In this document: positions 9,571-23,619 of the stretch, one piece after another
Position numbering within the stretch: the first letter of the stretch is position 1
Layout of the letters: each line of letters begins with the position of its first letter
DNA from: Meiothermus sp.
Lineage (GTDB): Bacteria; Deinococcota; Deinococci; Deinococcales; Thermaceae
Assembly: GCF_025056915.1 (NCBI RefSeq)
Contig: NZ_JANWVH010000028.1
Coordinates: 1-32,925, forward strand
DNA: 32,925 nucleotides
Reading direction: 5' to 3'
Position numbers and translations under genes: made by a program
The notes under the pieces: model-generated
Seen by the model: the letters and a program-made list of their open reading frames with translations, nothing else
Database searches by the model: none
Told to the model about the DNA's origin: nothing

Positions 9571-9682
9571 ACCACCTCGCCTGGTTGCGGTTTCCTGATG
9601 ATGCGCCTACCCCTCGTACGCTTTGGTGGTTCGGCGGGAGGGGCGAGGACGGACTGGGAATGGGGTCTCATATGGGCCTGGG

Positions 9683-10435
9683 CTAGCTCACGATTTTCCA
9701 GCGGTAAAACCCCAAAAAATAGGGGTTCTCGGGCCTGGGGTGCCAGTATTTCTGGGGGTGCTGGTTCAGGGTTTTCAGGCTGACCAGCCGCACTTCTCCG
9801 CCTTCCGAAGGGGCGTAGCCGGTGTGATAGACCACCAGGCCGTTCCCCAGATAGACCATGCTGTGGTAGGCCGAGCCTTTGGCCAGGGGGCGCACGAAAA
9901 AGAGCAGGTCGCCCCGCCGGGCCTTGTCCGGGGTGCGGCCCAGGAGGACGCTCGAGTACCGCATCAGGTACATGGCGCTGGCCCACCCCACCAGCCGACC
10001 CTCCTTCACATCGTTGGAGCGGTAGGGCCCCGGCGCCACCCGGAAGACCGCGCGGCCAATCTGCGGCAGGGGAAACGCGCCCAGGGGCGGGGCCTGCACC
10101 CGGGGCAGGTAGGGGAACTGCTGAAACCAGTCCTGGGTCTTGGGCTTGAGGGCTTCTACAAAGGCAAAGCGCAGCAGGCCGGAACAGTCCTGCGCCTCGG
10201 CGGGCCAGGCCGGCGAGGGGGCGGTGAACTGGGCCTCGGCAATGGCCGCAAACCACTCTAAAAAAGCCTCGCGCCAGGCGGTGCTGTGGAGCTCGGCCAC
10301 ATCGGGGTAGCCGTCCTGGTCGAGGTCGGAGAGGTCGGGCCGGGCCGGGCTGAGCGGCGCCGCCGACCCCAAGCTCCAAAACCCCAGAGCCATCCATCCG
10401 AGCACCAGCCCCACCCACCGTGTACCTTGCAGCAT
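9683..10435 (-). CDS. DUF1175 (YfaT-like) exported NlpC/P60-like protein
   Basis: The chosen ATG at 10435 gives 250 aa beginning with a signal peptide (MLQGTRWVGLVLGWMALGFW); an upstream in-frame start would only add a non-signal extension, and GAAGGGAAC precedes this ATG. Features match the DUF1175 family found next to alpha-2-macroglobulin genes. Residues 37-45 form a DxDxDGxxD calcium-loop motif (DLDQDGYPD). The rest resembles an NlpC/P60 papain-like fold: candidate catalytic Cys84 in DCSG, ARRGDLLFF at 172-180, His191 in YHSMVYLG and His204 in VYHTG. Envelope cell-wall amidase or peptidase activity is therefore plausible but unproven. A TACAAT box lies at 10446-10451 (minus strand). Confidence 0.78.
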   Translation of the reverse strand: MLQGTRWVGLVLGWMALGFWSLGSAAPLSPARPDLSDLDQDGYPDVAELHSTAWREAFLEWFAAIAEAQFTAPSPAWPAEAQDCSGLLRFAFVEALKPKTQDWFQQFPYLPRVQAPPLGAFPLPQIGRAVFRVAPGPYRSNDVKEGRLVGWASAMYLMRYSSVLLGRTPDKARRGDLLFFVRPLAKGSAYHSMVYLGNGLVVYHTGYAPSEGGEVRLVSLKTLNQHPQKYWHPRPENPYFLGFYRWKIVS

Positions 10436-10445
10436 GTTCCCTTCG

Positions 10446-10451
10446 ATTGTA
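10446..10451 (-). promoter_or_regulatory. Candidate -10 box of the DUF1175-macroglobulin operon
   Basis: On the minus strand TACAAT lies 10 nt before the DUF1175 ATG, with a GAAGGGAAC ribosome site between. No convincing -35 was found. It sits in the 74-nt divergent gap shared with the YhhN gene. Confidence 0.35.
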
Positions 10452-10509
10452 GCGCGAACCAAGGTAAGCTGGGGGTCGTCTAAAGGCTGTCTCAAGTCGT
10501 GGGAGCGCA

Positions 10510-11121
10510 ATGAACGAATGGAGTGGGCTTTGGCTGGGATGGGGCGGTTTAAGCCTCCTGGGGCTGCTCTGGGCCGAGTGGCGGCAGCGGCGTGCTTTGC
10601 GGGCTCTCTTCAAGGTGTTCTGCTCGCTGGGGTTTTTACTCTTTGCCCTGAGCCTGGGCCTCGAGGGTTGGTTCGCACAGTTTGTTTTTACGGGGTTGCT
10701 GCTTTCGGCGGTGGGGGATGTGCTCTTGCTGTTCAGGTCGAACCGGGCCTTTCTGGCGGGTCTGGTGGCCTTTCTGCTGGCTCATCTGGCCTACCTGGGG
10801 GCCTTTGTACAGGTGGGCTCACCGAGCCTGTGGGGCTTGCTGCTGGTGTGGCTGGGGGGATATTTCTGGTTGCGCTGGCTGTGGCCGCACCTGGCGGGCT
10901 GGCGGGGGCCGGTGCTGGCCTACGGCGTGGTCATCAGCCTGATGCTCTGGGTAGGGCTGGGGGTGCCCAGGCCGGAGGTTTTTCTGGGTGCACTGCTTTT
11001 TTACCTGTCCGACCTGTTGGTGGCCCGGGAGCGCTTTGTGGTACAAGAACCCCTGAACCCCTTGCTGGGGCTGCCGCTCTACTACGCGGCCCAGTATTTG
11101 CTGGCCGGGTCGGTGCGGTAG
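10510..11121 (+). CDS. YhhN-family membrane protein (lysoplasmalogenase-like)
   Basis: A 203-aa, very hydrophobic protein with about eight predicted membrane segments and the YhhN/TMEM86 pattern: LFALSLGLEGW, then GLLLSAVGDVLLLF with a conserved Gly-Asp, then FLAHLAYLGAF and a late FYLSDLLVARERF with a conserved Asp. TMEM86 members hydrolyse the vinyl-ether bond of lysoplasmalogens. Whether bacterial members do so is known for only a few, so the activity here is inferred. ATG at 10510 has GGGAG 4-5 nt upstream. It is divergent from the DUF1175 gene and ends 2 nt from the stop of the convergent GH36 gene. Confidence 0.85.
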   Translation: MNEWSGLWLGWGGLSLLGLLWAEWRQRRALRALFKVFCSLGFLLFALSLGLEGWFAQFVFTGLLLSAVGDVLLLFRSNRAFLAGLVAFLLAHLAYLGAFVQVGSPSLWGLLLVWLGGYFWLRWLWPHLAGWRGPVLAYGVVISLMLWVGLGVPRPEVFLGALLFYLSDLLVARERFVVQEPLNPLLGLPLYYAAQYLLAGSVR

Positions 11122-11123
11122 GG

Positions 11124-12971
11124 CTACGGAAGCTGGGTGGGGATGGGGGGGTCGCCCAGGAAAATCAGGGCGCCCTCGTGCGGGGCCAGGTGCAAGGAAA
11201 GCTGTTTTTGGGGTGGCAGGAATTCCTGGCGGTGCCAGTGGTAGCCCGGTAGCGGGGCCGGCAAGCCCAGCTCGAGCAGGTCATAGGTGCGCTGCACGGT
11301 TTCTTGGCTGGGGTTGAAGGCCAGCACCGCCGCCGGACGCTGGCCCCGCACCTGCACCAGAACCTGGTCTTCACGTCCCAGCAAGGGAAAGCGGCAGGAG
11401 CCCGCTGCTGCGTTTAGCAGCATCCGCCACAGGGCCAGGCGTTCGGGAGAGAGTTCCTCCAGCGCATCGCTGGTGAGCAGGGCCCCACCCATCATCCCGG
11501 CAAAGAGGGCCAGCGCGGTCTGTTCGTCCGGGCGCAGGTGGTGGAACCGCTCGCGCAACAGCACGCAGTCGGGGTCGGCTTCCCAGAGCAGGTGGTTGGC
11601 AAAGTTGCGCAGAGCCAGCCCGTGCAGGCGCTCGAGGGCGTCGGGGAGCCACTCCGCCCCCACATCGCGCCCGGTGCGGTTGCCCTCGACCAGCCCCACC
11701 GAGGCCCACAGGGGCATCCCGCAGCCCATCCAAAGGGCCTCGCCGATTTCCTCGCGGATCATCCGGGCCACCCTGTGCCAGACCTCCATTCGGCTCAGGC
11801 CGGGGGTGTGGTAGGCTGCCCGATCCGGGCCGTATTCCGCGCCCCAGAACATAAAATCGGTCTTGAAGTATTCGCAACCCCAGTCATGCCGCCAGGTGCG
11901 GAAAACCCTGCGCAGGTATTCGAAGGCCTCCGGGTGGGTGGCATCCAGAATGTAGTACTCCTCGCTTCGCTTGTGCCAACGGAACTCGCCGTAAAAGCGC
12001 ATCTGCACCAGCGGCTGGCCCGTTTCTCGCTCGCGCAACACCCAGTCGGGGTGCTGCCGGTAAAGCTGGCTGCGGTTGCCTACGGTAAAAGGGGCGATCC
12101 ACAGGCCAGGCCGGAAGCCCGCCGCGCGGATTTCCTCCAGCACGGGCTTGAGGCCCCGGGGAAACTGGGGTTTGACCAGGAGCCAGTCGCCCATCTCGGG
12201 GGTGAAGCCGTCGTCGAGCTGAAAAACCTGCATGGGAAGGTGTTCCCGCCGGGCCACCGCCTCCACCCCGCGCAGGTGCTCCAGGATGTTCTGCTCGCTG
12301 ATGGCCGCATACAGGTGGTACCACGAGCACCAGCCGGTGATGGGCTGGGCGGGAATGCGCGGCGGAAAGGGGGCGGCCTGGGCCACCCGGCGGGCCCACT
12401 CGCGCAGGGCTTCCTCCACCCCCGCGTGCTCGAAAACCAGCAGGGTCTCGGACTCGATTCGCCCGGCCTTTTTTCGATCCCACAAGGTCTGGATGCAAAG
12501 CGTGGGGCCTGCAAAGGTGAAGGTGTGCTGGAAGCGGTCGTGCCGCTCAAAGCCCAGCACCAGGCTGCCCGTACCCAGTGCGGGGAGCAGCTGGGTGAGG
12601 GCGTAGCCGGTCTGGGGGGCTCCGCCCAGCGCCACATACGCCGCCCCGTCCCAACTGTGGTAGCCCTGGCGCAGGTACTTTTGCGCCCCCTCCACCTCGA
12701 AGCAAAGCCCCAAGGCATCCAGGGTGAAGTGCTGGGGAAGCTCCTCCAGCCCGTAGCGAAGCCTCCAGACAGGGCCTTCCTGTAAAGCCTGCACCCAGAA
12801 GCTTCCATGTGGGGTTCGATACCGTACCCGCCAGTGGTTGGGGTCGTTTTGTTCCACCCTGGTGGCGACCCTTTCGACCAAAGCTCCGTTAACGAGTGGC
12901 CGGGCCCGAAGCAGTTTGATCGAACTTCCCAGCAGGTTGAAGGTCTGGTCGGGGTTGAGCGTCAGCCTCAC
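11124..12971 (-). CDS. GH36-type alpha-galactosidase-like glycoside hydrolase
   Basis: Retaining glycosidase of clan GH-D, 615 aa. An N-terminal beta-sandwich (about 1-200) precedes the (beta/alpha)8 barrel, which begins ITGWCSWYHLY at 211. Barrel motifs: VFQLDDGF at 249-256, GLWIAPFTVGNRSQ at 289-302, nucleophile Asp372 in YFKTDFMFWG, and proposed acid/base Asp436 in EGNRTGRDVGAEW. Family activity is usually alpha-galactosidase, but GH36 includes other alpha-glycoside specificities. GTG at 12971 overlaps the Gfo/Idh stop by 4 nt, so translation is probably coupled. This is the last gene of the glycoside operon. In this setting its substrate may be an oxidised or epimerised glycoside rather than a raffinose-type sugar; that is an inference. 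Confidence 0.85.
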   Translation of the reverse strand: MRLTLNPDQTFNLLGSSIKLLRARPLVNGALVERVATRVEQNDPNHWRVRYRTPHGSFWVQALQEGPVWRLRYGLEELPQHFTLDALGLCFEVEGAQKYLRQGYHSWDGAAYVALGGAPQTGYALTQLLPALGTGSLVLGFERHDRFQHTFTFAGPTLCIQTLWDRKKAGRIESETLLVFEHAGVEEALREWARRVAQAAPFPPRIPAQPITGWCSWYHLYAAISEQNILEHLRGVEAVARREHLPMQVFQLDDGFTPEMGDWLLVKPQFPRGLKPVLEEIRAAGFRPGLWIAPFTVGNRSQLYRQHPDWVLRERETGQPLVQMRFYGEFRWHKRSEEYYILDATHPEAFEYLRRVFRTWRHDWGCEYFKTDFMFWGAEYGPDRAAYHTPGLSRMEVWHRVARMIREEIGEALWMGCGMPLWASVGLVEGNRTGRDVGAEWLPDALERLHGLALRNFANHLLWEADPDCVLLRERFHHLRPDEQTALALFAGMMGGALLTSDALEELSPERLALWRMLLNAAAGSCRFPLLGREDQVLVQVRGQRPAAVLAFNPSQETVQRTYDLLELGLPAPLPGYHWHRQEFLPPQKQLSLHLAPHEGALIFLGDPPIPTQLP

Positions 12972-13954
12972 AGCCTGACCTCGGTGCCGCTTTCAGCGGA
13001 GGTGCGGGCGGCCAGCACCAGCTCCAGCGACTTCGCCCCTTCGCGCAAGGGCGTGCGGGTGGGGCCGCCGGTGCGGATGGCCCGGATCAGGTCTTGCATC
13101 TGGGCCAGGTACAGGTCGCGGCCCGACTGGAGGGTGTGGGTGGTGACCTCCGGCCCGGCGGTGAAGAAGAAGCGGGCCTGGTTGGTATCGCCGAACTCGG
13201 CGGTGAGGTTTTGCGCGACCAGTTTGAAATCCTTGATCCACTGGCCCGGAATGGCCCCGTTGCTGGCGTAGACCACGCCCAGGCCGCCGTTGGCAAAGGT
13301 GACGATGGTGGCGCTCACATCCTCGATGGTGTAGCCGGGGGTGTTTTGGTGGAAGAGGTTGGCCTGTTTGGCGTAGACCGTGCGGGGCTCGCCCATCAGG
13401 TAGCGCATCAGGTCGAACATGTGAATGACCTGCTCGACCAGTTGCCCCCCCGATTTAACCTTGTCGCGCCACCAGGGGGCGTGCAGGGCGTTGCAGAAGT
13501 AGCGGGCGCTGAAAAGCCCGATGGGGCCGGTGTCCAGGCCTTGCAGGTATTCCAGCGCCTCGCCAAAGCGGTACATGAAGCCCGCCTGGGTCTGGATGCC
13601 GGCCTGCTCGCTGGCTTCCACCATCTGCCAGGCTTTTTCCTGCGTAAGCGCGATGGGTTTTTCCACCAGCAGATGAATGCCCCGCCGGGCGGCCTGCTCC
13701 ACCTCGTCGGTATGGCCGTAGGGGGGCAGGCAGACGATCAGAATATCCAGGTCGGTGGAATCCAGCATCTCGGTGGGGTGGGTGAAGACCTGGGCCCGGC
13801 CCGCGCTGTACTGGCCCGATAAGGCCTGGGCTTTCCAGGCGTTGCGGTCGCAGCAGGCCACCAGCTCGACTTCGCTGCCGAGCTGCTTAAGCACCTGGGC
13901 GTGGCGCTGGGCAAAGCCGCCGCAGCCGAGGATGGCGGTTCGGAGGGGTTTCAT
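12968..13954 (-). CDS. Gfo/Idh/MocA-family oxidoreductase (YcjS-like role)
   Basis: NAD(P)-dependent sugar oxidoreductase, 328 aa. The N-terminal Rossmann motif GCGGFA is at 10-15, and the nucleotide/substrate-junction motif EKP with the usual Lys is at 98-100. The C-terminal substrate domain begins about residue 125; the conserved segment GGQLVEQVIHMFD (169-181) provides His178 and Asp181. It overlaps the upstream dehydrogenase by ATGA and the downstream GH36 gene by GTGA, an arrangement for tight co-production. In the E. coli ycj cluster the matching gene, ycjS, interconverts a glucoside and its 3-keto form. The same chemistry is likely here but is an inference from context. Confidence 0.88.
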   Translation of the reverse strand: MKPLRTAILGCGGFAQRHAQVLKQLGSEVELVACCDRNAWKAQALSGQYSAGRAQVFTHPTEMLDSTDLDILIVCLPPYGHTDEVEQAARRGIHLLVEKPIALTQEKAWQMVEASEQAGIQTQAGFMYRFGEALEYLQGLDTGPIGLFSARYFCNALHAPWWRDKVKSGGQLVEQVIHMFDLMRYLMGEPRTVYAKQANLFHQNTPGYTIEDVSATIVTFANGGLGVVYASNGAIPGQWIKDFKLVAQNLTAEFGDTNQARFFFTAGPEVTTHTLQSGRDLYLAQMQDLIRAIRTGGPTRTPLREGAKSLELVLAARTSAESGTEVRL

Positions 13955-14985
13955 GGGAACTCCAGGACGACCTGCACAGCCTCGCCGGGCTGCCGGTCGA
14001 GCAGTTGGTAGGCCGCTTCGATTTGCTCAAAGGGAAAGGTATGGGTGATGAGGGGTTGCCATTGCAGCCGTCCCTCGGCGGCCAGTTGGACGACGGTCTG
14101 TTCCTGCCGCAGCCGATCCCAGCGGTGGGCCCGCCGGGGGGCGATGCCCTGGGTTTGGGAGGAGAGGAGCTCGAGGCGGTTGTGGTGGAACTCCTCGCCC
14201 AGCCGCAGGCCCACCCCCTCGCCTTGCAGGAAGCCTGCTGCCACCACCCTCGAGTTGTAAGCGGTGGCCCGCAGGGCCTCCTGCAGGGCTGCATAGGCCC
14301 CGCTCAGCTCGAGGCTCACATCGGCCCCGCGCCCCTGGGTCAGGTCTTTGATGGCCTCGCCCGGAGAGGTTTGGCGAAAGTCCAGGACGTGCGCCGCGCC
14401 GAGCCTGCGGGCCAACTCGAGCCGCAGCTCGAGGCCGTCCACCACAATCACCGTAGCCCCGCTAAGCCGGGCCAGTTGCAGGGCCAAAAGCCCCAGCACC
14501 CCCAGGCCAAAGATCGCCACCGTTTCGCCCAGGTGCACCTCGGCGTCGTGGACCGCATTGAGCGCAATGGCCCCGATCCGGGCAAACACCCCCAGGCGGG
14601 GGTCGGCCCCCTCGGGCAGAACGCGTGGTGCTGCCAGGTTTTCGGCTAGCACCGTGTGGCTTTGGTGGCCCCAGGAACCCCAGACCCGTTGCCCCAGCCG
14701 CACTTTGCTGACCTCCGGCCCCACCTCCACCACCTCGCCCACCTGTTCGTAGCCCACCCCCTTGAGGGGATAGGCCAGACCCGGCTGGTTAACAAACAGC
14801 CGTCGCTCCGGGTCGAAGCGCTTGTGCAGGTAGGGGTTGGTGCCCCGGTACTGGGTCAGCTCGGTGCCCGCCGAGATGCCCGAGAACAGGGTACGCACCC
14901 GCACCTCACCGGGCTTCAGAGGGGGGTCGGGGGTGGCCTCGAGGGCCACCTGTCTGGGTGCTGTAAAAACGAGTTGTGTTCCCAT
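13951..14985 (-). CDS. Zinc-type medium-chain dehydrogenase (YcjQ-like), catalytic zinc Cys apparently absent
   Basis: MDR-superfamily oxidoreductase, 344 aa from the ATG at 14985 (MGTQLVFTAPRQVAL); a longer frame from 15066 would overlap the phosphorylase gene and adds an unlikely extension. The N-terminal GroES-like domain carries LFSGISAGTELTQYRG, where classical alcohol dehydrogenases have a zinc-ligand Cys; here the position is Ser. The structural four-Cys zinc lobe is replaced by a Cys-less loop, as in YcjQ/BchC-type relatives. The NAD(P) motif is FGLGVLGLLALQLA. In E. coli YcjQ oxidises gulosides at C3. It lies 58 nt after the phosphorylase and is coupled by ATGA to the Gfo/Idh gene. 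Substrate and metal dependence are unknown. Confidence 0.82.
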   Translation of the reverse strand: MGTQLVFTAPRQVALEATPDPPLKPGEVRVRTLFSGISAGTELTQYRGTNPYLHKRFDPERRLFVNQPGLAYPLKGVGYEQVGEVVEVGPEVSKVRLGQRVWGSWGHQSHTVLAENLAAPRVLPEGADPRLGVFARIGAIALNAVHDAEVHLGETVAIFGLGVLGLLALQLARLSGATVIVVDGLELRLELARRLGAAHVLDFRQTSPGEAIKDLTQGRGADVSLELSGAYAALQEALRATAYNSRVVAAGFLQGEGVGLRLGEEFHHNRLELLSSQTQGIAPRRAHRWDRLRQEQTVVQLAAEGRLQWQPLITHTFPFEQIEAAYQLLDRQPGEAVQVVLEFP

Positions 14986-15043
14986 ATTCGCAAAGATGCC
15001 GTTGTTCCGGGTAGCCGGTCGAGCGCCTGCAGGGTCGGGTGCC

Positions 15044-16714
15044 TTACACCAGCCATAGCACGCCATACGGCGGAATCTGCCCGGAAAAGTATTTGCCGCT
15101 GATCAGGTCGCGCCCCACGCGGTTGATGGGCTGGGGCCTGGGGGTCACATTGATATAACACCCCACCTGCCGGTCGCGGTAGCCCCGGATGATGCGCAGC
15201 ACCTCCCTGGACTCCATGACCACCTGGGGGGCGCCTGGGTGAAACGCCGGGTGAGCGGCCCGCACTTTGAGGAGATGGGTGTAGCGGGCCAGCACCCTGT
15301 GGGCGCGGGTGTTCGGGCTGCTCAGCAATCCCTCCAGCTCCGGCCCGCTGAACTTGTGTCGGTTGAGGCGGCGGTTGATCCCGCTTTCTTCCAGGCCCGC
15401 ATGGTCGGAGGGGGAACCCAGGAGGCTATGGATATAGATACCCGGCACCCCTTGCAGGCTCAGTAGGATGGCATTGGCCGCCATAAAGCGGTTAATTTTT
15501 AGGTCTTCGCTCTCGTCGCTGTGGGGGTGGTTCAGGGCATCGAACAGGGTCAGGCAAAGCTCATAGGGCACCGGGCCCTCCGGGGTGTCTTTGTAGTTGA
15601 CCCGGCCCCCATGATCGAGGGCCTGCTGCACCAGGGCCGCGATTTCTTCAGGTTCCAGAAGGCCCTGGGCTGGCACCACCCCCAGCCCGTCGTGGGAGGC
15701 CAGAAAGTTGAAGAAGGTGGTCTGTTCGCTGGGGGGTTTTAGGCCCGCCGCCCAGGCCGCCAGCTTGCTGGCGTCGCCGGTACGGAAGGTGTTCAGCACC
15801 AGCGGGGGCAGCGGGAACTGGTAGACCATCTGGGCTTCATCCTGCCCGTTGCCGAAGTAGGCGATGTTGTCCTTATGCGGCACGTTGGTCTCGGTGATCA
15901 GAACCCCCGGCGGCGCCACCACGTCCAGCACCAGCCGCATCAGCTTGACGATGCGGTGGGCCCCTTCCAGGTGCACACAAGCGGTGCCGATCTCTTTCCA
16001 GATAAACCCTACCGCATCCAGACGAATCAGCTGGGCGCCGTTTTTGGCGTAGAACAACAGCGCGTCCAGCACCTCCAGCAGCACCTCGGGGTTGGCAAAG
16101 TTGAGGTCAATCTGGTCGGTGGAGAAGGTGGTCCAGACCAGCTTCTCGCCACTCTTGGTCTGGAAGGGGGTCAGCAAAGGCAGGGCGCGGGGCCGGAAGA
16201 CTCTGGAGAGGTCGGTGCCGGGCGCGACCACGGTGAAATAGTCTTGGTACTTGGGTTCGTCGCGCAGGAAGGCCTGAAACCACGGCGAAGAGGCCGAGGC
16301 ATGGTTGCAGACCAGGTCGGCCATCAGGCGGAAGTCCTGGGCGATGGCCTGGATGTGCTCCCAGGTGCCCCACTCGGGTTTGACCTGCTTGAAGTCCACC
16401 ACGCTGAAGCCGTCGTCGGAGGTGTAGGGGTAGAAGGGCAGGATATGCACCCCGGAGAGCACCCCCTGCAGGTATCGGCGCAAAAAGCGGTGCAGGGTTT
16501 GCAGGGGGGCTTCCCCGGCTTGGGTGATCTGGTCGCCGTAGGTGATCAGGATGGCATCTTTTTCGCTCCAGGGCGGGGTTGGGGTGGGTTGGGCCAGGTT
16601 GGGGTAGCGTTTCAGCAGGGCCTGGAGTTGCTCGAGTACCGCCCCGCCCCGGCCTGGGTAGAGGAACTCGAGGTGCTCGAGCATTTTTTGTTCGAGGTGG
16701 CTGGTGAGGGTCAT
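15044..16714 (-). CDS. GH13_18 sucrose-phosphorylase-like enzyme, probably glucosylglycerate phosphorylase
   Basis: (beta/alpha)8 retaining phosphorylase, 556 aa. Catalytic residues: nucleophile Asp233 (LIRLDAVGF), acid/base Glu275 (LITETNVPH) and transition-state Asp342 (FLASHDGLGV). GH13_18 contains sucrose, sucrose-6-phosphate and 2-O-glucosylglycerate phosphorylases. The compact loop after SHDGLG (VVPAQGLLEPEEI) and the length are closer to E. coli YcjM-type enzymes than to sucrose phosphorylase as I recall them. The neighbouring GH63 hydrolase, and a known glucosylglycerate phosphorylase from Meiothermus silvanus, favour reversible conversion of glucosylglycerate plus phosphate to glucose-1-phosphate plus glycerate. 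The ATG at 16714 lacks a Shine-Dalgarno sequence; a TTG at 16750 preceded by AGGGTAGG would add 12 residues. No phosphoglucomutase is nearby. Confidence 0.85.
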   Translation of the reverse strand: MTLTSHLEQKMLEHLEFLYPGRGGAVLEQLQALLKRYPNLAQPTPTPPWSEKDAILITYGDQITQAGEAPLQTLHRFLRRYLQGVLSGVHILPFYPYTSDDGFSVVDFKQVKPEWGTWEHIQAIAQDFRLMADLVCNHASASSPWFQAFLRDEPKYQDYFTVVAPGTDLSRVFRPRALPLLTPFQTKSGEKLVWTTFSTDQIDLNFANPEVLLEVLDALLFYAKNGAQLIRLDAVGFIWKEIGTACVHLEGAHRIVKLMRLVLDVVAPPGVLITETNVPHKDNIAYFGNGQDEAQMVYQFPLPPLVLNTFRTGDASKLAAWAAGLKPPSEQTTFFNFLASHDGLGVVPAQGLLEPEEIAALVQQALDHGGRVNYKDTPEGPVPYELCLTLFDALNHPHSDESEDLKINRFMAANAILLSLQGVPGIYIHSLLGSPSDHAGLEESGINRRLNRHKFSGPELEGLLSSPNTRAHRVLARYTHLLKVRAAHPAFHPGAPQVVMESREVLRIIRGYRDRQVGCYINVTPRPQPINRVGRDLISGKYFSGQIPPYGVLWLV

Positions 16715-16924
16715 GGCAGTATGGGGGATGAACAAGGCCTTGAGCTGCAAGTCCTACCCTAAGCAGGGCGCGGAAAACCAGGGGGATTCAAGCCGGTGTT
16801 GCAGGAAGGCTGTAGCCTCGAGGGGTTCTGGTCTAGGACAAAGGGGGGCTGGCTCGGTCGCTTTATACGTGTTTAGCATACGATGTTCTGCGCAGGGCTA
16901 TTGGCAAGGCCGCCAACCACCGGC

Positions 16925-18211
16925 TCAGCGCACGGGGCCCGCAGCCTGGCCCCAGGCCAGGTATATGGCTGCCGTCCAGGAGAACGCGCCACCCCCCAAC
17001 CCCTGTCCTGTCAAAGGATGGAAGTACTCGCTAAAACCTGTGACCTCGCACAGCTTCAGGGTATCTTGACGAATACGCTCGGCCATCTCGGGGTAGCCAT
17101 ATTCGGCGAAACCCAGGGCGATCAAGTAGTTGACCACCGCCCACACCGGGCCACGCCAGTAGCGCTGGGGTTCGAAGCGAGGGCTATAGGGGTCGGTGCT
17201 GGGAATCAGGTAGCGCACCTGCTGGGCCCAATCCTGGAGGGTGCGTAGCAAGCGCTCGGCCCGGGCCGGGCTGGCCGTTCCGGCGTAGAGGGGCAGGAAA
17301 GAGGCCGAAACCCCTACCCGGATGGCCTCACCGGTGCGGAGGTCGCGGTTGAAATAGAGCCCTGCTTCCTCGTCCCAGAGGCTTTCGATGCCCTGTTGGC
17401 TGGCCTTTAGCCACCCCTCAATCTCGGCCTCGTTGCCCAGGCCCAACCGGCGCGAAAGCCACAGGAGATCGCGGTTGGCCCGGTGCAGCACGCAGTCAAT
17501 CAAGAGGCTCGCCACCCGGAAAGGGCATTCGCGCAGCAGGCCAAGCTGGTCGAAACCGGCCCGCTTGTAGACCTCGAGCAGGGTCAAAAAGCGGTCGTAT
17601 TCGGTCTGGTGGGGGCGTTGGCTGGGGTCTACGTGGGCGGTATCGCGTCGGGTGTAGGGCGGCAGTGCCGGGTCTACCTCCACGCGGGCCAGGGCTTCGT
17701 CCCAGGCGGGGCTGTTGTCGGCCCCGGTCTCCCAGGGGTGCAGGACGGTGATGAGGCCGGTATTTGCTGGGTCGCGTTCGCGCTTGAACCAGCGGTGGTA
17801 GGCCAGGATTTTGGGATACAGGCTCCGGGCTTTGGCCTCGGCCAGGGCCTGGTCTTGGGCCTGCTCGAGCATCCAGCGCACAAAGGTAGCGACCACCGGC
17901 GGCTGGGTGATGGCCGAGGTGGGCGGGGTGCGGGCCACCCCCCAGCGCTCGGGGCCGGGGAAGTAGGTGGGCTCGGGCCGGTGGAAGACGATGTGCGGCA
18001 GCATGCCGTTCTCCCACTGCCCCAAGAAGAGCCGGTCAAACTCCTCCCAGGCCCGCCGTTCATCAAACTGCATCCAGCCCAGGGCGGTAAAGCCCGCATC
18101 CCATAGCCACTGAAACGGGTAGAGGCCGGCGGTGGGAATGGTGAAGCCCCCCCGGTCGTTGGCGCGCAGGATGCGCTGGGCTTCTTGTTTGAGCGATTCC
18201 TTGGTTTGCAT
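16925..18211 (-). CDS. GH63 mannosylglycerate / glucosylglycerate hydrolase
   Basis: Inverting (alpha/alpha)6-barrel hydrolase, 428 aa, of the GH63 subgroup known from Thermus thermophilus, Rubrobacter and mycobacteria that splits 2-O-mannosyl- or glucosyl-glycerate to free sugar and glycerate. Visible signatures are YPFQWLWDAGF at 31-41, the conserved HPWETGADNSPAWDEAL at 158-174 with candidate acid Asp165, RYWRGPVWAVVNYL at 350-363, and candidate base Glu395 in FSEYFHPLTG. No signal peptide is seen, so it acts in the cytoplasm on imported substrate. ATG at 18211 has GAGGT a few nt upstream and lies 2 nt after the ABC ATPase stop. Mannose versus glucose preference cannot be read from sequence. 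It may also recycle the cell's own compatible solute. Confidence 0.88.
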   Translation of the reverse strand: MQTKESLKQEAQRILRANDRGGFTIPTAGLYPFQWLWDAGFTALGWMQFDERRAWEEFDRLFLGQWENGMLPHIVFHRPEPTYFPGPERWGVARTPPTSAITQPPVVATFVRWMLEQAQDQALAEAKARSLYPKILAYHRWFKRERDPANTGLITVLHPWETGADNSPAWDEALARVEVDPALPPYTRRDTAHVDPSQRPHQTEYDRFLTLLEVYKRAGFDQLGLLRECPFRVASLLIDCVLHRANRDLLWLSRRLGLGNEAEIEGWLKASQQGIESLWDEEAGLYFNRDLRTGEAIRVGVSASFLPLYAGTASPARAERLLRTLQDWAQQVRYLIPSTDPYSPRFEPQRYWRGPVWAVVNYLIALGFAEYGYPEMAERIRQDTLKLCEVTGFSEYFHPLTGQGLGGGAFSWTAAIYLAWGQAAGPVR

Positions 18212-18213
18212 AC

Positions 18214-19275
18214 CTACCTCGCGGCGAGGGCCTGACCACTGCCGGGGTCCAGCCAGCGCAGGCGATCCGGCTGGGGTTTGAACCAGAGGGTCTGGCCCGC
18301 CCTGACCCTGAAGTCGGGGGGTACGGTGGCTTTGAGGAGCTGCTGGCCAAAGCGCAGGGTTAGCAGAAGGTGGGGCCCCAGGGGTTCGACAACCAGCACC
18401 TCGGCGGTAAAGCTCTGCGGTTGCGGCTCGAGGTAGGCTTCCAGGTCTTCGGGCCGCACCCCCAGCAAGACTTCCGGGCCGGGCGCTGGCGTGGGTATCT
18501 TCAGGCTGAGTGACTGAAGCTGGGCTTGCTGACCCTCCACCCGAACCTTCAGAAAATTCATGGGGGGGCTGCCGATGAAGCCGCCCACGAAGGTATTGGC
18601 GGGCTCCTGATAGACCTTCATGGGCTCGTCGTACTGCACCACATAGCCGGTGTTCATCACGGCAATGCGGTCGGCCAGGCTCATGGCTTCCACCTGGTCG
18701 TGGGTGACGTACAGGGTGGTGGTGCGGCTCTCGGCCAGCAGGCGTTTGAGTTCGGCCCGCATCTCCAGGCGCAAGAGGGCATCCAGGTTGGAGAGGGGCT
18801 CGTCCATGAGCAGTACCTCGGGCTCGACCGCCAGGGCCCGGGCCACCGCCACCCGCTGGCGCTGTCCACCCGAGAGCTGCGCGGGGTAGCGCTCGAGCAG
18901 GTTCTCGATGTGCATCAGGGTAGCGGCCCGCTCCACGTTGGCCCGCAGTTTTTCAGGCGTGGCTTTCTGCATCCGCAGGCCAAAGGCGATGTTCTCGAAC
19001 ACCGTGAGGTGCGGAAAAACCGCGTAGTTCTGGAACACCATGGCGATCTTGCGCGCGCGTGGGGGGAGTTCGGTTACATCCCGGTCGCCAATCCAGACCC
19101 GCCCCTTTTCGGCCTGCTCGAGGCCCGCAATGATGCGCAACAAAGTGGTCTTGCCACAGCCCGAGGGCCCCAGCAACACCACGAATTCCTGGTCGCGCAC
19201 CTCGAGCGAAACCCCGTTCAGGGCCTTGAACTTGCCAAAGGTTTTCTCGATGTTTTCCACTCGGATGGAAGCCAT
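18214..19275 (-). CDS. Sugar ABC transporter ATP-binding protein (MsmK/UgpC type)
   Basis: Energising ATPase of a carbohydrate importer, 353 aa. Walker A GPSGCGKTT at 36-44, Q-loop Gln82, signature LSGGQ at 134-138, Walker B LLMDEP at 155-160 and a C-terminal TOBE/regulatory region (about 240-353) typical of MalK-like CUT1 ATPases. The start at 19275 (MASIRVENIEKTFGKF) is set by a perfect AGGAGG at 19279-19284 (minus strand); a longer in-frame extension to 19353 is rejected. It follows the two permeases by 79 nt and precedes the GH63 gene by 2 nt, so the transporter and catabolic genes are probably one operon. Such ATPases can serve several importers; here it is dedicated by position only. 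Confidence 0.93.
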   Translation of the reverse strand: MASIRVENIEKTFGKFKALNGVSLEVRDQEFVVLLGPSGCGKTTLLRIIAGLEQAEKGRVWIGDRDVTELPPRARKIAMVFQNYAVFPHLTVFENIAFGLRMQKATPEKLRANVERAATLMHIENLLERYPAQLSGGQRQRVAVARALAVEPEVLLMDEPLSNLDALLRLEMRAELKRLLAESRTTTLYVTHDQVEAMSLADRIAVMNTGYVVQYDEPMKVYQEPANTFVGGFIGSPPMNFLKVRVEGQQAQLQSLSLKIPTPAPGPEVLLGVRPEDLEAYLEPQPQSFTAEVLVVEPLGPHLLLTLRFGQQLLKATVPPDFRVRAGQTLWFKPQPDRLRWLDPGSGQALAAR

Positions 19276-19278
19276 AAA

Positions 19279-19284
19279 CCTCCT
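19279..19284 (-). promoter_or_regulatory. Strong ribosome-binding site fixing the ATPase start
   Basis: Minus-strand AGGAGG ends 3 nt before the ATG at 19275. It decides this start over the in-frame upstream extension. Confidence 0.75.
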
Positions 19285-19354
19285 AGGGGGTCGAAAGCTG
19301 ATAAAAGCAGGGGGCAACTGCCATTGGAAGCCACTGCGACCATTCTGCCCCACC

Positions 19355-20155
19355 TCACCGGTTGGCGATGCCCCACAGGGTAAACAGGTAGCGCCGGATG
19401 ATGAAGATGAAGATCAGGGCCGGCACAATCAGAAAGAAGCCCCCGGCAAAGCGGAAGGGGAGGGGGGAGTCGTTGAGCGAGGTCAGCAAGAAAGCGGGCA
19501 GGGTGCGCTCGCGCAGGGTGAGCAGGGTGGCGGCAAAGACCTCGTTCCAGGAAATCACAAAGGCAAAGATGGCGGTGGCCGCCAGTCCGGGCAGGGCCAG
19601 CGGCAGCACCACCCGCAAAAAGGCCTGGATGCGGTCGCAGCCCAGGGTCCAGGCCGCCTCTTCCAGCTCTTTGGGGATACCCAGAAACAGGCTGCTGGTC
19701 ACCAGCACCGCAAAAGGCAGGGCCAGCGCGGTGTGGACCAGCGCCACCCCAAAGGCGGTGTCGTAGATGCCCAGCTGGATGAATTGCACCGCCAGCGGGA
19801 TGGCCAGAATGGCCAGGGGAAAAGCCCGCGTCATCAGAATCAGCAGGCGGTAAGCATCGGCGCCCGCAAAACGGTAGCGGGCCAGGGCATAGCCTGCGGG
19901 GGCCCCCAGCAAGACCGAGAAAACCAGGGTCATGGCGGCCACGGTCAGGCTATTGCGGATGGCTTTCCAGACCCCCTCCACCCCAAAAAAGAAGGCGATG
20001 GTCTCCAGCGAAAACTGCTGGGGCAGGAGGCCCTTGGGCCAGGCAAAGACCGAAGAGCGGTCGCTGAAGGCCAGGGTGGCGATCAGAAAGATGGGCAGCA
20101 GCACCCAGACCACCAGCACCCCCGCCAGCAACATATAAAGTACGCGCAGGTTCAT
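19355..20155 (-). CDS. Sugar ABC transporter permease (MalG type)
   Basis: Second membrane subunit of the CUT1-type importer, 266 aa with six predicted membrane segments. The cytoplasmic EAA loop that contacts the ATPase is visible as LEEAAWTLGCDRIQAFLRVV, followed by LPLALPGLAATAIF. ATG at 20155 overlaps the stop of the upstream permease (ATGA), so the two are translated in a coupled way. It is followed by 79 nt and then the ATPase. It corresponds to YcjP in the E. coli ycj cluster. Substrate specificity comes mainly from the binding protein. Confidence 0.92.
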   Translation of the reverse strand: MNLRVLYMLLAGVLVVWVLLPIFLIATLAFSDRSSVFAWPKGLLPQQFSLETIAFFFGVEGVWKAIRNSLTVAAMTLVFSVLLGAPAGYALARYRFAGADAYRLLILMTRAFPLAILAIPLAVQFIQLGIYDTAFGVALVHTALALPFAVLVTSSLFLGIPKELEEAAWTLGCDRIQAFLRVVLPLALPGLAATAIFAFVISWNEVFAATLLTLRERTLPAFLLTSLNDSPLPFRFAGGFFLIVPALIFIFIIRRYLFTLWGIANR

Positions 20156-21003
20156 GCTGCACCCTCCCTCTTGGAGCGCATCAGGCGCAAATAAAGCATG
20201 GTGGCCACCACCGAGATGCCCAGGATGATGACCGAGTAAGCAGCCGCCACCCCAGGATTTTGATAGGCGTTGTACCAGTAGTAGGCTTCCCCGGCCAGCA
20301 CCGGCAGGTTGCGCCCGCCCAGAGCGACCACCACCGCAAAAACCTCGAGGGCCAGAATCGTTCGCAGAATCAGGGCCACTTGCAGGCTGGGCATGAGCAG
20401 GGGCAGGGTGACTTTCCAGAAGCGTTGCCAGGGGGTGGCGCCAAACACCTCGGCGGCCTCGCTGTACTCCTTGGGAATCAGTTGCAGGCCCGCCACTAGA
20501 ATCACAAACACGATGGCCGTGGCCCGCCAGACTTCAGCAGCCACCACGGCCACGAAAATCATCGTGGGGGTCTCGTAGCTGAGCCACAACTGCGGCTGCT
20601 GAATCACCCCGATGCCCTGCAAAAAGCTGTTGAGATAACCCCGCTCGGTGAAAATGGCCAGCCACACAATACCGGCGGCCAGATCGGAAATACCCAGCGG
20701 GATGGTCCACACATACAAGAACAGATCTCGGCCCCTGGAGATGCCCCCCAGCAGCATGGCCATTCCCAGGGCCATCACCACCTGTAAGGGCACAATCACC
20801 ACAGTCAGGAGCAGGGTGTATTTGAGGGCATCCTTGAAGTAGAGGTCGGCGGCCATGCGCTGGAAATTCTCCAGCGTCCACTGCCCCCCGCTGCCCCGCA
20901 CCGACAAGAGCAGGGCTTCCAGGAGCGGCCAGGCAAACAAAAACAACAGAAACAGCACGCTCGGCAGAATGAGCACGTAGGGGATGTACCGTTCACTACG
21001 CAT
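20152..21003 (-). CDS. Sugar ABC transporter permease (MalF type)
   Basis: First membrane subunit of the importer, 283 aa with about six membrane segments, starting MRSERYIPYVLILPSVLF. The EAA loop is EYSEAAEVFGATPWQRFWKV, followed by TLPLLMPSL. A TTG eight codons upstream (21027) is possible, but GGAAGGG at 21008-21014 (minus strand) supports the ATG at 21003. It lies 185 nt downstream of the binding-protein gene, with a terminator-like hairpin in the gap, and overlaps the second permease by 4 nt. It corresponds to YcjO by cluster position. Confidence 0.92.
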   Translation of the reverse strand: MRSERYIPYVLILPSVLFLLFLFAWPLLEALLLSVRGSGGQWTLENFQRMAADLYFKDALKYTLLLTVVIVPLQVVMALGMAMLLGGISRGRDLFLYVWTIPLGISDLAAGIVWLAIFTERGYLNSFLQGIGVIQQPQLWLSYETPTMIFVAVVAAEVWRATAIVFVILVAGLQLIPKEYSEAAEVFGATPWQRFWKVTLPLLMPSLQVALILRTILALEVFAVVVALGGRNLPVLAGEAYYWYNAYQNPGVAAAYSVIILGISVVATMLYLRLMRSKREGAA

Positions 21004-21048
21004 CAGACCCTTCCACTTTGGTTCCAAACCGGCTGAGTGCCCTTGGAA

Positions 21049-21079
21049 AAGGGGCCGGTGCCCCGATGACCGGCCCCTT
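21049..21079 (-). terminator. Intra-operon terminator-like hairpin between binding protein and permeases
   Basis: On the minus strand a perfect 10-bp stem, AAGGGGCCGG and CCGGCCCCTT with an 11-nt loop, is followed by two further T residues (TTTT in all). It lies about 110 nt after the binding-protein stop and 46 nt before the permease start. Such hairpins commonly stop part of the transcription or protect the upstream message, giving more binding protein than membrane subunits. The short T-run suggests partial rather than full termination. Confidence 0.6.
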
Positions 21080-21188
21080 CCCTAAGTCCAAACTGAACCG
21101 ACACGGTTGCTGTTTGCGCGCACACCACCTGCATCGTTGCCCAACGTCAAAGGTGGGGCTCTTGGCTCGCAGCTTTCGGCCTTTCGCG

Positions 21189-22478
21189 TTAGTTCACCGG
21201 ACAGGCCCCGCTGCTGGCCGGGTCGGGCGACCAGCAAGGAGCCCTGGTTTCGTTCATGATGCGGCGCAGATTGGCGGCTTCGCTGTCGAGCACCCGGCGG
21301 ACATCTTCGTTGCGCAGGACGATGCGCGCAAAGGTATCCTGGAAGACTTTGTTGTACTCGCCGCCCCTTGCGCCCAGGCCCACCGGCAACAGGCTGGGCA
21401 GGGCCACGTTGCTCTGGGCCTGCCGTGCGATGGCATCGGCGGCCATGCGAATGCCCTGGGGCAGGTTGTCGGGCAGCCGAATCTGGATGACCGGGAAAAA
21501 GCCGTTTTGGACCAGGGTGGTGATCTGTACGTCGGGGCGGGTCAGGTACTCGATGGCGGTGACCGCCGCAGCCCGGTTGGGGCTGCCCTTGGGAATGGCC
21601 AGCCCGGCCAGCACCGGCATGAAGCCCCGGCCATACGGCCCGATGGGGGCCGGGAAAGCCACAAAGTCGCCCGGTTTTTGGTTTAGCGCATCGCGCAAGC
21701 GGGCGATGTGATCCCAGGCGATCCAGACCTCACCCGCCAGCAGGGGTTCCTGCATAAAGTCGTAGCTGGTGGACTGGGGGTTCACGTGCTGCCAGAGGTT
21801 CTTGAACTCGAGCCACATGCTCTCGGCCTCGTCGCTCCTGAACTTGGTGACCGCGCTTTTGGTGTAGGAGGGATACAGATACCCCTGCGTGAAGCGGTGC
21901 ATCAAACCCCTGGGGCCTGCCGGGAAGCCCAGCATGCGCCGCCCTGTGGCCCGCTGGATGTTGGCGGCCCACTCCTTGAGCTGGGTGTAGGTGAGGGTGT
22001 TGACGTTGGCGCCCGCCGGCAAATACTGCAAGGCCTGTCGGTTGGCCACCATGATGTAGGTGGCTTGCATCCAGGGGATGTAGAGCTGGTTGCCCGTGCC
22101 CATCTTGCCCAGGTTCACAAACGTCTGTGAGAAGCGGCGGTCTTTGAGCTGGGCCATCACGTCGTCCAGGGTGTCCAGCGCCCCCGCTGCGATCAGCGGC
22201 GGGAAGTCGCCGTGCAGACCTCCGGCCAGGCCCACATTCACCCGGCCTGCCCGAACTTCGGAGAGAATCCGGTTGGTAAAGGGGGCGTTGTCCTCGGGGA
22301 TGAACTCCACCCGCCCCTGGAAGTCCTTCAGGATCACCTGCCGCATCCGCTGGGCCTCCTCGATGGGGGTAAACTGGGTCGAGACAAACAAAAGCGGCGC
22401 CGTCTGCTGCGCCAGCACCCCGGACAGCACCAGCAAGGTGCTCAAGAGACCCCACCACAACCACTCCCTCTTCTTCAT
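21189..22478 (-). CDS. Sugar ABC transporter substrate-binding protein
   Basis: Extracytoplasmic solute-binding protein of the CUT1 type, 429 aa. A signal peptide (MKKREWLWWGLLSTLLVLSG) cleaves probably after Ala23, before QQTAP; there is no lipobox Cys. The mature part shows the bilobal pattern of family 1 binding proteins, with aromatic residues likely to stack on sugar (for example LYIPWMQATYIMVANRQAL and the VWIAWDH segment). ATG at 22478 has an excellent AAGGAGGAAGGC site, consistent with high expression. It lies 12 nt after the LacI-type gene, so the regulator heads the operon. The ligand is inferred from the downstream enzymes to be a glycosyl-glycerate or related alpha-glycoside. Confidence 0.92.
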   Translation of the reverse strand: MKKREWLWWGLLSTLLVLSGVLAQQTAPLLFVSTQFTPIEEAQRMRQVILKDFQGRVEFIPEDNAPFTNRILSEVRAGRVNVGLAGGLHGDFPPLIAAGALDTLDDVMAQLKDRRFSQTFVNLGKMGTGNQLYIPWMQATYIMVANRQALQYLPAGANVNTLTYTQLKEWAANIQRATGRRMLGFPAGPRGLMHRFTQGYLYPSYTKSAVTKFRSDEAESMWLEFKNLWQHVNPQSTSYDFMQEPLLAGEVWIAWDHIARLRDALNQKPGDFVAFPAPIGPYGRGFMPVLAGLAIPKGSPNRAAAVTAIEYLTRPDVQITTLVQNGFFPVIQIRLPDNLPQGIRMAADAIARQAQSNVALPSLLPVGLGARGGEYNKVFQDTFARIVLRNEDVRRVLDSEAANLRRIMNETRAPCWSPDPASSGACPVN

Positions 22479-22490
22479 GCCTTCCTCCTT

Positions 22491-23537
22491 TTAAGGTTGC
22501 GGGGGACCATCCGACCCCCGCAGTACCAACTCGGGAACCCAGACCTCCTGCAACGCCGAAACCGGCGCTCCACCCAGCCGCGCCAGCAACATCTCCACTA
22601 ACCGTTTGCCGGTGTCGCGAAAAGGCTGGTGCACCGTGGAGAGGGGTGGGTCGGTGTACTGGGCCTGGGGGATGTCGTCGTAGCCAATCACCGAGACCTC
22701 CCGACCCCCCTTGAGCCCTCGCTCGCGCAAGGCCCGCAGAACCCCCAGGGCCATCAGATCGTTGGCGCACAGGATGGCGGTGGGCATTTCGGGTGGCGCC
22801 AGCAGAATTTGGGCCAGCTGGTAGCCGCTGTTCTCGCTGAGATCGCCCTCGAGCAGCCATTCGGGCCGGATGGGGATTCCGGCCTCGAGCATGGCCTGCC
22901 GGTAGCCTGCCAGGCGGTGAGTGGCAAAGTTGAGTTCGCGTGGGGCCCCAATGAAAGCGATGTTCCGGTGGCCCAGGTGCAGCAGATGCTGCGTGGCCAT
23001 ATAAAAACCCTGCTGCCCATCCACATCCAGATAGGGGTAGGGGGTGCTGATGAGGTCACTACGTCCGTGCGACACGAAAGGGATGTTTTGCGCGAGCAGA
23101 TAGGCAATGCGTTCGTCGTAACGGCGGGTGCGGGCTACCACCAGACCGTCTACCCGTTTGCCCTCCACCAGTCGCCGATAACAGCCCAGCTCCTCCGTGC
23201 CCGGCGGGCAAGTGGCGACCAGCAAATCCAGACCGGCATCCGAAAGCCCCTCGCCCAGTCCGGCCAGCAACTCCAGAAAAAATGAATCGGCAAAACGCCC
23301 CGGCGGAGAGGGAATCACCAGGCCGATGGTCTCGGCACGGCCCTTGCGCAAACGCTTTCCATTCGGGTTGGGGCGGTATCCCAGACGGGTCGCAATCTCC
23401 AGCACTCGCTCGCGGGTCTGGGGGCTAACGCGACTGGGGTTATTGAGCACCCTCGAGACTGTGGCAATCGAAACACCGGCCTCCGCTGCTACGCGGCGGA
23501 TATCAACAGCCAGGGGAGAGGGTTTATGGCCAGACAT
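22491..23537 (-). CDS. LacI-family transcriptional regulator
   Basis: DNA-binding repressor of 348 aa. The N-terminal helix-turn-helix (about 13-34, DIRRVAAEAGVSIATVSRVL) and hinge helix (about 48-62, IATRLGYRPNPNGKRL) are typical. A periplasmic-binding-protein-like effector domain follows from about 68 (ETIGLVIPSPPGRF). It is the first gene of the glycoside operon. A near-palindromic LacI-type operator and a promoter lie 38-82 nt upstream, so it probably represses its own operon until the sugar ligand binds; E. coli YcjW is the positional counterpart. ATG at 23537 has no strong ribosome site, which fits low regulator levels. Confidence 0.92.
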   Translation of the reverse strand: MSGHKPSPLAVDIRRVAAEAGVSIATVSRVLNNPSRVSPQTRERVLEIATRLGYRPNPNGKRLRKGRAETIGLVIPSPPGRFADSFFLELLAGLGEGLSDAGLDLLVATCPPGTEELGCYRRLVEGKRVDGLVVARTRRYDERIAYLLAQNIPFVSHGRSDLISTPYPYLDVDGQQGFYMATQHLLHLGHRNIAFIGAPRELNFATHRLAGYRQAMLEAGIPIRPEWLLEGDLSENSGYQLAQILLAPPEMPTAILCANDLMALGVLRALRERGLKGGREVSVIGYDDIPQAQYTDPPLSTVHQPFRDTGKRLVEMLLARLGGAPVSALQEVWVPELVLRGSDGPPQP

Positions 23538-23574
23538 AGACTATTCGCCCAAAGAGAACTACTCTGGTACGTGA

Positions 23575-23590
23575 TGTAAACGTTTTCCAT
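23575..23590 (-). promoter_or_regulatory. LacI-type operator upstream of the glycoside operon
   Basis: TGTAAACGTTTTCCAT (plus strand) is close to the LacI/GalR operator consensus, with a perfect AAACGTTT core and G/C pairs two positions beyond it on each side. It lies directly next to the candidate -10 box at 23591-23596, where a bound repressor would block RNA polymerase. The natural ligand is the regulator encoded 38 bp away. Confidence 0.7.
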
Positions 23591-23619
23591 ACCTTATCAT
23601 GACAGCCCACTTTCTGCAA
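23591..23619 (-). promoter_or_regulatory. Candidate promoter of the lacI-ABC-glycoside operon
   Basis: On the minus strand TTGCAG (23614-23619) and TAAGGT (23591-23596) are separated by exactly 17 nt, a good sigma-70-type layout. The operator sits immediately downstream, giving a leader of about 50 nt before the regulator ATG. Confidence 0.5.

Follow-up and report, generated by a model that had tools for sequence, protein, structure and literature searches.

A ten-gene operon in Meiothermus

The window analysed here is a stretch of 32,925 nucleotides from Meiothermus sp. (NZ_JANWVH010000028.1), which is contig C112 of a 3.02-Mb genome (G000; 191 contigs, 94% complete). Its minus strand carries ten co-oriented genes at 11124-23537. 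They encode, in this order, a LacI-family repressor, an extracellular solute-binding protein (SBP), two ATP-binding cassette (ABC) permeases, an ATPase, a GH63 and a GH13_18 enzyme, a medium-chain dehydrogenase/reductase (MDR), a Gfo/Idh dehydrogenase, and a GH36 enzyme. The original prediction had listed the genes in the same order, and for each of the ten proteins the best Pfam family scores above its gathering cut-off. The core of this operon is of an already known type. The new element is its 3' end, an exchangeable cassette of MDR, Gfo/Idh, and GH36 genes, which travel together in several phyla in place of the MDR and epimerase found in other relatives. The features are as follows.

23574-23589, minus strand: operator TGGAAAACGTTTACAT, a LacI-type palindrome just upstream of lacI
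22491-23537, minus strand: LacI-family repressor, 348 amino acids (Pfam LacI 65.5 bits, Peripla_BP_3 137 bits; 27% identical to YcjW)
21189-22478, minus strand: extracellular SBP, 429 amino acids (SBP_bac_1 63 bits)
20152-21027, minus strand: ABC permease 1, 291 amino acids (BPD_transp_1; 32% to YcjO)
19355-20155, minus strand: ABC permease 2, 266 amino acids (BPD_transp_1; 33% to YcjP), overlapping permease 1 by 4 nt
18214-19353, minus strand: MalK/UgpC-type ATPase (ABC_tran, OB_MalK, TOBE_2; 44% to YcjV), conserved start near 19275
16925-18211, minus strand: predicted GH63 mannosylglycerate/glucosylglycerate hydrolase, 428 amino acids (MGH1-like_GH 367 bits; TTHA0978 476 bits)
15044-16750, minus strand: predicted GH13_18 glucosylglycerate phosphorylase, 568 amino acids in the longest open reading frame (47% to YcjM), conserved start near 16714
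13951-15066, minus strand: MDR dehydrogenase, cassette gene 1 (ADH_zinc_N 84 bits; 33% to YcjQ; mean model confidence, pLDDT, 86), conserved start near 14985
12968-13954, minus strand: Gfo/Idh dehydrogenase, cassette gene 2, 328 amino acids (GFO_IDH_MocA 84 bits; 28% to YcjS; model pLDDT 91)
11124-12971, minus strand: GH36 alpha-galactosidase-like enzyme, cassette gene 3, 615 amino acids (TmGalA 1zy9 161 bits)

Conservation in relatives suggests that the ATPase, GH13_18, and MDR proteins are shorter than their longest open reading frames and begin near the starts given above. The "several" 4-nt overlaps of the original prediction are present at three of the nine junctions (20155/20152, 13954/13951, and 12971/12968). 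The operator falls inside the stretch that had been delimited, which ended at 23619. The ten genes are predicted to make up a single regulated unit, a LacI-type operon, in this member of the Thermaceae.

Enzymes of glycosylglycerate breakdown

The GH63 protein scores 476 bits against TTHA0978 of Thermus thermophilus and 247-255 bits against the mycobacterial enzymes. PMC6608630 names the substrate and catalytic residues of the glucosylglycerate hydrolase (GgH) of Mycobacterium hassiacum. Of 16 such residues checked, 15 are kept in the window's GH63, both catalytic residues (Asp182 and Glu419) among them. The sole exception, Gln434, is Phe in the window's protein and in TTHA0978 alike. Against NF047898, the equivalog model of glucosylglycerate hydrolase, the protein scores 399 bits, below the cut-off of 550, and it is closer to TTHA0978. 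While it resembles both the Thermus mannosylglycerate hydrolase (MgH, TTHA0978) and M. hassiacum GgH, the window's GH63 gene differs from theirs in lying inside an importer operon.

The GH13_18 protein shares 47% of its residues with E. coli YcjM in an alignment that covers 97% of the query. According to PMC7178133, glucosylglycerate phosphorylase (GGaP) is marked by the motif (T/S)ETN and by a Glu in loop A, where most other clades have Gln. Both marks are found in YcjM and in all 12 Thermaceae GH13_18 proteins compared, including the window's, which has TETN; the loop-A Glu stands in the sequence PYE in every one of them. The score against the sucrose phosphorylase model TIGR03852 of NCBIfam is 190.5 bits, below the equivalog cut-off of 334. 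Together with the GGaP marks this speaks against a sucrose phosphorylase, and the sequence evidence assigns the protein to the YcjM/GGaP type, as the original prediction had proposed. GGaP of Meiothermus silvanus is among the enzymes that have been characterised (PMC7178133). The same prediction had named glycosyl-glycerates as substrates. This substrate class is well supported by sequence, both by the likeness of GH63 to TTHA0978 and by the GGaP fingerprints.

Do these enzymes recycle an osmolyte of the bacterium's own? MpgS has no match in the 18 genomes of the genus, the window's own included, and is found in three of the 50 family genomes, all three in genus code g4. In none of the 50 do MggS or GpgS exceed their cut-offs, with one weak match to MggS and weak matches to GpgS in all 50. 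Synthesis or recycling of an own osmolyte is rejected on these grounds. Since the synthases have no match over cut-off in the genus and a dedicated importer is present, the operon most likely scavenges glycosylglycerates. Import and breakdown of these compounds by the core genes is, by these comparisons, highly probable.

Comparison with the E. coli ycj cluster

The original prediction saw in this operon a version of the E. coli ycjMNOPQRSTUV-W cluster with GH63 and GH36 added. The likeness holds for GH13_18 (47%), the permeases (32-33%), the ATPase (44%), and LacI (27%), and less certainly for MDR (33%) and Gfo/Idh (28%). Among the ycj proteins YcjQ is the best match of the MDR, over 92% of the query (residues 31-370), and YcjS is the best match of the Gfo/Idh protein. 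In other respects the two clusters are unlike. YcjR, YcjT, and YcjU have no counterparts in the operon, the similarity of the SBP to YcjN in BLASTP is no better than chance, and the Gfo/Idh protein has a Glu where YcjS has an Asp. In the window lacI opens the operon, while ycjW lies at the far end of its cluster on the opposite strand. GH63 and GH36 are indeed present beyond the ycj set. GH36, however, is not merely an addition; it is part of the MDR-Gfo/Idh-GH36 cassette.

In E. coli, YcjQ is annotated as D-guloside 3-dehydrogenase, YcjR as 3-dehydro-D-guloside 4-epimerase, and YcjS as D-glucoside 3-dehydrogenase. The interconversion of gulosides and glucosides, which had been carried over to the window from this cluster, is not supported: YcjR is absent from the cluster, and the genome, 94% complete, has no relative of it at E<=1e-25.

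Variation of the operon 3' end in Thermaceae

The conservation of gene order that the original prediction expected in Thermaceae is found. All ten genes occur in the same order in the window, in G019 (L043), and in Calidithermus chliarophilus (G003; L049/L087). The first seven genes, LacI to GH13_18, occur as a core without the cassette in G005, G007, G015, and G018. G004 has the core followed by a contig end inside the MDR gene. In G010 the cassette directly follows GH63, and GH13_18 is absent. G016 has GH13_18-MDR-Gfo/Idh-GH36 with no importer alongside and 1.3 kb between MDR and Gfo/Idh (L045:11788-13036). Close relatives of the window's Gfo/Idh protein (at least 69% identity) are found in five of the 50 family genomes.

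G001 and G012 have instead an MDR gene followed by a gene for a YcjR-like protein; the G012 contig begins inside permease 1. The YcjR-like protein of G001 is 37% identical to YcjR and belongs to Pfam AP_endonuc_2. We take G001 to be Meiothermus (Allomeiothermus) silvanus, the species of the characterised GGaP. The LacI-SBP-permease-permease-ATPase-GH63 array of G001 is like the window's and its GH13_18 is 70-71% identical, but MDR-epimerase stands in place of MDR-Gfo/Idh-GH36. Both arrangements are found downstream of GH63 within the window's genus, the cassette in G010 and MDR-epimerase in G012. Thus the 3' end of the operon varies in Thermaceae, and the cassette comes and goes.

The cassette outside Thermaceae

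An alignment scan with the MDR, taking one genome per species, gives at least 562 relatives. The analysis used the 80 most similar of these, a choice that favours MDRs like the window's. Tblastn places a YcjR-like gene in 38 of the 80 loci, a Gfo/Idh gene of the window's clade in 30, neither in 11, and GH36 only in one; no locus has both a YcjR-like gene and such a Gfo/Idh gene. The same is seen when the count is restricted to the 59 loci that extend 4 kb or more to each side (29 YcjR-like, 23 window-clade Gfo/Idh, none with both). These genes lie close to the MDR gene: the YcjR-like gene is within 1.5 kb of it in 35 of 38 loci, and the window-clade Gfo/Idh gene is within 2.5 kb in 30 of 30. 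GH36 is found in none of the 38 epimerase loci and in 21 of the 42 others.

Twenty of the 80 loci and four from Thermaceae have all three cassette genes by tblastn. In all 24 the order is MDR-Gfo/Idh-GH36 on one strand, and both gaps are at most 500 bases in 22. Such loci occur in Chloroflexota, Pseudomonadota, and Deinococcota, and a divergent one in Bacillota (Halanaerobium, L161, where a divergent GH36 follows MDR and Gfo/Idh). Inquilinus (L125) and Pelagibacterium (L147) have LacI-SBP-permease-permease-ATPase-GH63-MDR-Gfo/Idh-GH36, which is the window's operon without GH13_18. In a Chloroflexi metagenome-assembled genome (L091) the complete set of ten is split into two divergently oriented units. 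GH36 of the cassette type is uncommon: among 385 genomes from the class of Inquilinus, only that of Inquilinus itself has it at E<=1e-90.

Some loci carry other genes. Six of the 80 (L123, L126, L150, L155, L156, and L161) have a glycosyltransferase cluster; the two glycosyltransferases tested (L155 and L161) reach 420-430 bits in comparison with mannosylglucosylglycerate synthase, short of the 640 cut-off, and in Thermaceae no such gene exceeds it. These clusters suggest that the theme of decorated glucosylglycerates is kept, and the cassette might remove an outer sugar. In Paenibacillus L137, Gfo/Idh comes after an AraC regulator and before a GH78-like rhamnosidase; both have relatives in L141 and L152, and the MDR and Gfo/Idh proteins of all three loci are of the window's group. 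The rhamnosidase is perhaps a third closing enzyme. Two Rhodobacteraceae loci, L130 (322-9481) and L143, read LacI-SBP-permease-permease-MDR-epimerase-ATPase-ThuA-Gfo/Idh, with no glycosidase among the annotated genes. An oxidoreductive route without hydrolysis is possible in such clusters.

Apparent exchange of partners behind one MDR lineage

The trees of the cassette genes do not agree. The MDR of the window falls together with those of G001 and L084, which are of the epimerase type (support 100/94), and a constraint that places it beside the MDR of the Calidithermus cassette is rejected (post hoc approximately unbiased (AU) test, p 2e-5). The window's GH36, on the other hand, groups with that of Calidithermus (100/100). 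The Gfo/Idh tree is not decisive (AU p 0.13). Because MDR groups with the epimerase type while GH36 groups with the Calidithermus cassette, the epimerase and the Gfo/Idh-GH36 pair appear to have been exchanged behind one MDR lineage, as though they served as alternative outlets for the same MDR product.

GH36 and the possible handling of galactose

In the GH36 enzyme of Thermotoga maritima (TmGalA), Tyr191, Trp257, Asp220, Asp221, Lys325, and Arg383 contact the C3-, C4-, and C6-OH of a galactose mimic, and Asp327 (nucleophile) and Asp387 (acid/base) are catalytic, according to PMC6089974. These eight residues and Trp190 are identical in all 25 aligned GH36 proteins, the window's included; the divergent GH36 of L161 is outside this alignment. 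The window's GH36 thus shares all nine residues with TmGalA. It differs in length (615 amino acids, compared with 564-575 residues in the crystallised chains) and in being the third gene after MDR and Gfo/Idh. Since the galactose site and the catalytic residues are conserved, the final intermediate of the cassette is most likely an alpha-galactoside.

The galK gene is found in 17 of the 18 genomes of the genus, including the window's own, and released galactose could enter metabolism via GalK. A second, shorter GH36 exists in the window's genome (G000:C22:5041-8899) on the same contig as galK. Its open frame is 491 amino acids long and 37% identical to the cassette enzyme. GH36 genes of this second kind are found in 16 of the 18 genus genomes.

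Levoglucosan dehydrogenase, WlbA, and DgpA are Gfo/Idh enzymes that oxidise C3. The structure model of the window's Gfo/Idh protein (pLDDT 91) is nearest to these three, tied with many others. The sequence identity to them is 21-25%, and the window's protein has Glu174 where YcjS has Asp.

A possible route through 3-keto-glycosides

Gulose differs from galactose at C3 only and from glucose at C3 and C4. The proposed explanation of the whole operon, which we rate at even odds, is a LacI-repressed scavenging operon for 2-O-alpha-glycosyl-D-glycerates with a cassette for a further hexoside. The ABC importer would take up the glycosylglycerate solute. GH63 would hydrolyse mannosyl- and/or glucosylglycerate, and GH13_18 would phosphorolyse glucosylglycerate to glucose 1-phosphate and glycerate. 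The substrate classes of these core enzymes are inferred from their sequence relatives. More speculative are the C3 chemistry of the cassette, its direction, and the identity of guloside and galactoside. The MDR would oxidise C3 of the further hexoside to give a 3-keto-glycoside, and the Gfo/Idh enzyme would reduce it from the opposite face, so that C3 is inverted on balance and NADH is recycled. An example of such an inversion would be that of an alpha-D-guloside to an alpha-D-galactoside, from which GH36 would cleave off the alpha-galactosyl unit. The hexoside could be an outer unit on a decorated glucosylglycerate.

How likely are the parts of this scheme? A 3-keto step by the two dehydrogenases is slightly more likely than not. 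With YcjQ-like and YcjS-like enzymes and no C4-epimerase, a guloside would become a galactoside, which GH36 would accept; this particular conversion is a tentative proposal. With a C4-epimerase the product would be a glucoside, which would fit E. coli GGaP and kojibiose phosphorylase. This would account for the absence of loci with both GH36 and the epimerase. The cassette may be an unrecognised deglycosylation route, in which C3 of an alpha-D-guloside, or of a hexoside like it, is inverted by two NAD-dependent dehydrogenases acting on opposite faces and GH36 cleaves the galactoside, while the same MDR step is elsewhere coupled to a C4-epimerase and leads to glucosides. The type of cluster would then predict the sugar, gluco-type ends with the epimerase and galacto-type ends with GH36. 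In this full form the proposal is doubtful.

Several observations weigh against this scheme. The identities of MDR to YcjQ and of Gfo/Idh to YcjS are low (33% and 28%). The expected catalytic triad of YcjS is Lys-Asp-His, and in the window's Gfo/Idh clade Glu174 takes the place of the Asp, one of the expected catalytic residues, in 12 of 12 proteins. The mutual exclusion of epimerase and Gfo/Idh has a Fisher p of 2e-12 with kinship ignored, and the partner label (epimerase or Gfo/Idh) changes six times on the 86-row MDR tree and four times on a more careful 40-row tree, where two of the changes are forced by well-supported branches. The AU test on the MDR was run after the first tree was seen. 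Other Gfo/Idh-like genes exist in 13 of the 38 epimerase loci, and L130 also has one, which BLAST missed; the exclusivity is therefore limited to the window's Gfo/Idh clade. One locus (L144) has MDR-GH36 without this clade, and ten have MDR-Gfo/Idh without a GH36 detected by BLAST, one of them (L161) with the divergent GH36. GH13_18 or GH63 is found in 17 of the 30 Gfo/Idh loci versus three of the 38 epimerase loci (p 1e-5), but this association gives no signal once kinship is allowed for (three independent pairs). G019, a 490-contig assembly, carries the cassette and is the only genus genome without a galK match. Finally, we know of no natural source of alpha-D-gulosides.

Other explanations of the cassette

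The task of GH36 might simply be to hydrolyse an alpha-galactoside brought in from outside, for instance floridoside (2-O-alpha-galactosylglycerol) or a galactosylglycerate, with MDR and Gfo/Idh oxidising the released sugar or aglycone. The fully conserved galactose site of GH36 and the presence of galK agree with this. A producer of floridoside also exists in the red microalga Galdieria sulphuraria, which lives in hot habitats. Its floridoside is described in PMC5020028. What is left unexplained is why the MDR pairs with either an epimerase or Gfo/Idh plus GH36, and why a second, shorter GH36 lies on the galK contig; we regard this explanation as rather unlikely. Somewhat less likely still is oxidation followed by elimination, in which the 3-keto-glycoside made by the MDR is cleaved by beta-elimination, the xylose-isomerase-like partner is the eliminase, and the window's Gfo/Idh and GH36 are another exit. 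There is a precedent in Agrobacterium, where an operon encodes a 3-keto-O-glycoside beta-eliminase that carries the annotation sugar phosphate isomerase/epimerase (PMC10628242), and the importer-MDR-epimerase-ATPase-ThuA-Gfo/Idh clusters of L130 and L143, with no annotated glycosidase, could be read in the same way. However, the epimerase-like partner in G001 is related to YcjR (37%), which is annotated as a 3-dehydro-D-guloside 4-epimerase, and the window lacks such a gene, both in the cluster and, at E<=1e-25, in the genome.

A galactinol/inositol route, with GH36 splitting galactinol, Gfo/Idh as inositol dehydrogenase, and MDR as an IolM-like inosose dehydrogenase, is improbable. It draws on NCBIfam scores for IolG (TIGR04380, 125 bits) and IolM (96 bits) and on the best sequence matches in PDB, which include TM_0414 and inositol dehydrogenases. 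These scores are far under the cut-offs (355 and 450, respectively), the MDR aligns with IolM over residues 175-358 only but with YcjQ over 31-370, and profile scans of the operon proteins give no additional inositol pathway gene. The full ycj pathway, in which D-guloside would be converted to D-glucoside via MDR, epimerase, and Gfo/Idh to feed the phosphorylase, is the least probable of all. YcjM-, YcjQ-, and YcjS-like proteins are all present, but the missing YcjR largely refutes it.

The operator in related genomes

The 16-mer operator is unchanged in all ten aligned upstream regions, the window's included, while the flanks have otherwise diverged. An exact copy exists once per genome in nine of the 23 genomes searched, and all nine belong to the window's genus. 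In G013 it stands before a 3' fragment of GH13_18 (L053; G013:C15, near 48877-49570) whose encoded C-terminal part is 96% identical. These are apparently the remains of a deleted operon.

Near matches with one or two mismatches number 23 in all 23 genomes versus 20 for a reversed control pattern. Within the window's genus (15 genomes searched) they are four-fold more frequent than the control (20 versus 5). Because near matches outnumber the control there, the operator may have further targets beyond the operon in the genus. Six near-match sites inspected (five with two mismatches and one with one) all lie inside open frames of at least 154 amino acids. This location decides nothing, because one true operator (L176) is also inside such a frame.

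Just downstream of the operon (window 5104-10510, minus strand) is a gene for a bacterial alpha-2-macroglobulin of 1488 amino acids, preceded by that of a DUF1175 protein (9683-10510). The two make up a yfaS/yfaT-like pair.

Significance

According to PMC7178133 and PMC11543891, it is still to be settled what GGaP does in vivo and which ligand the E. coli ycj importer takes up. Direct access to both questions is offered by the alternation of a YcjR-like epimerase with Gfo/Idh plus GH36 after one kind of dehydrogenase, in an operon whose remaining enzymes can be recognised; the hydrolase that closes each version of the operon predicts the sugar that the dehydrogenases would make. Coming from a thermophile, the proteins should be well suited to expression and crystallisation. 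Should the proposed route prove true, hot springs would be seen to offer rare gulosides or galactosyl-type glycerates as nutrients.

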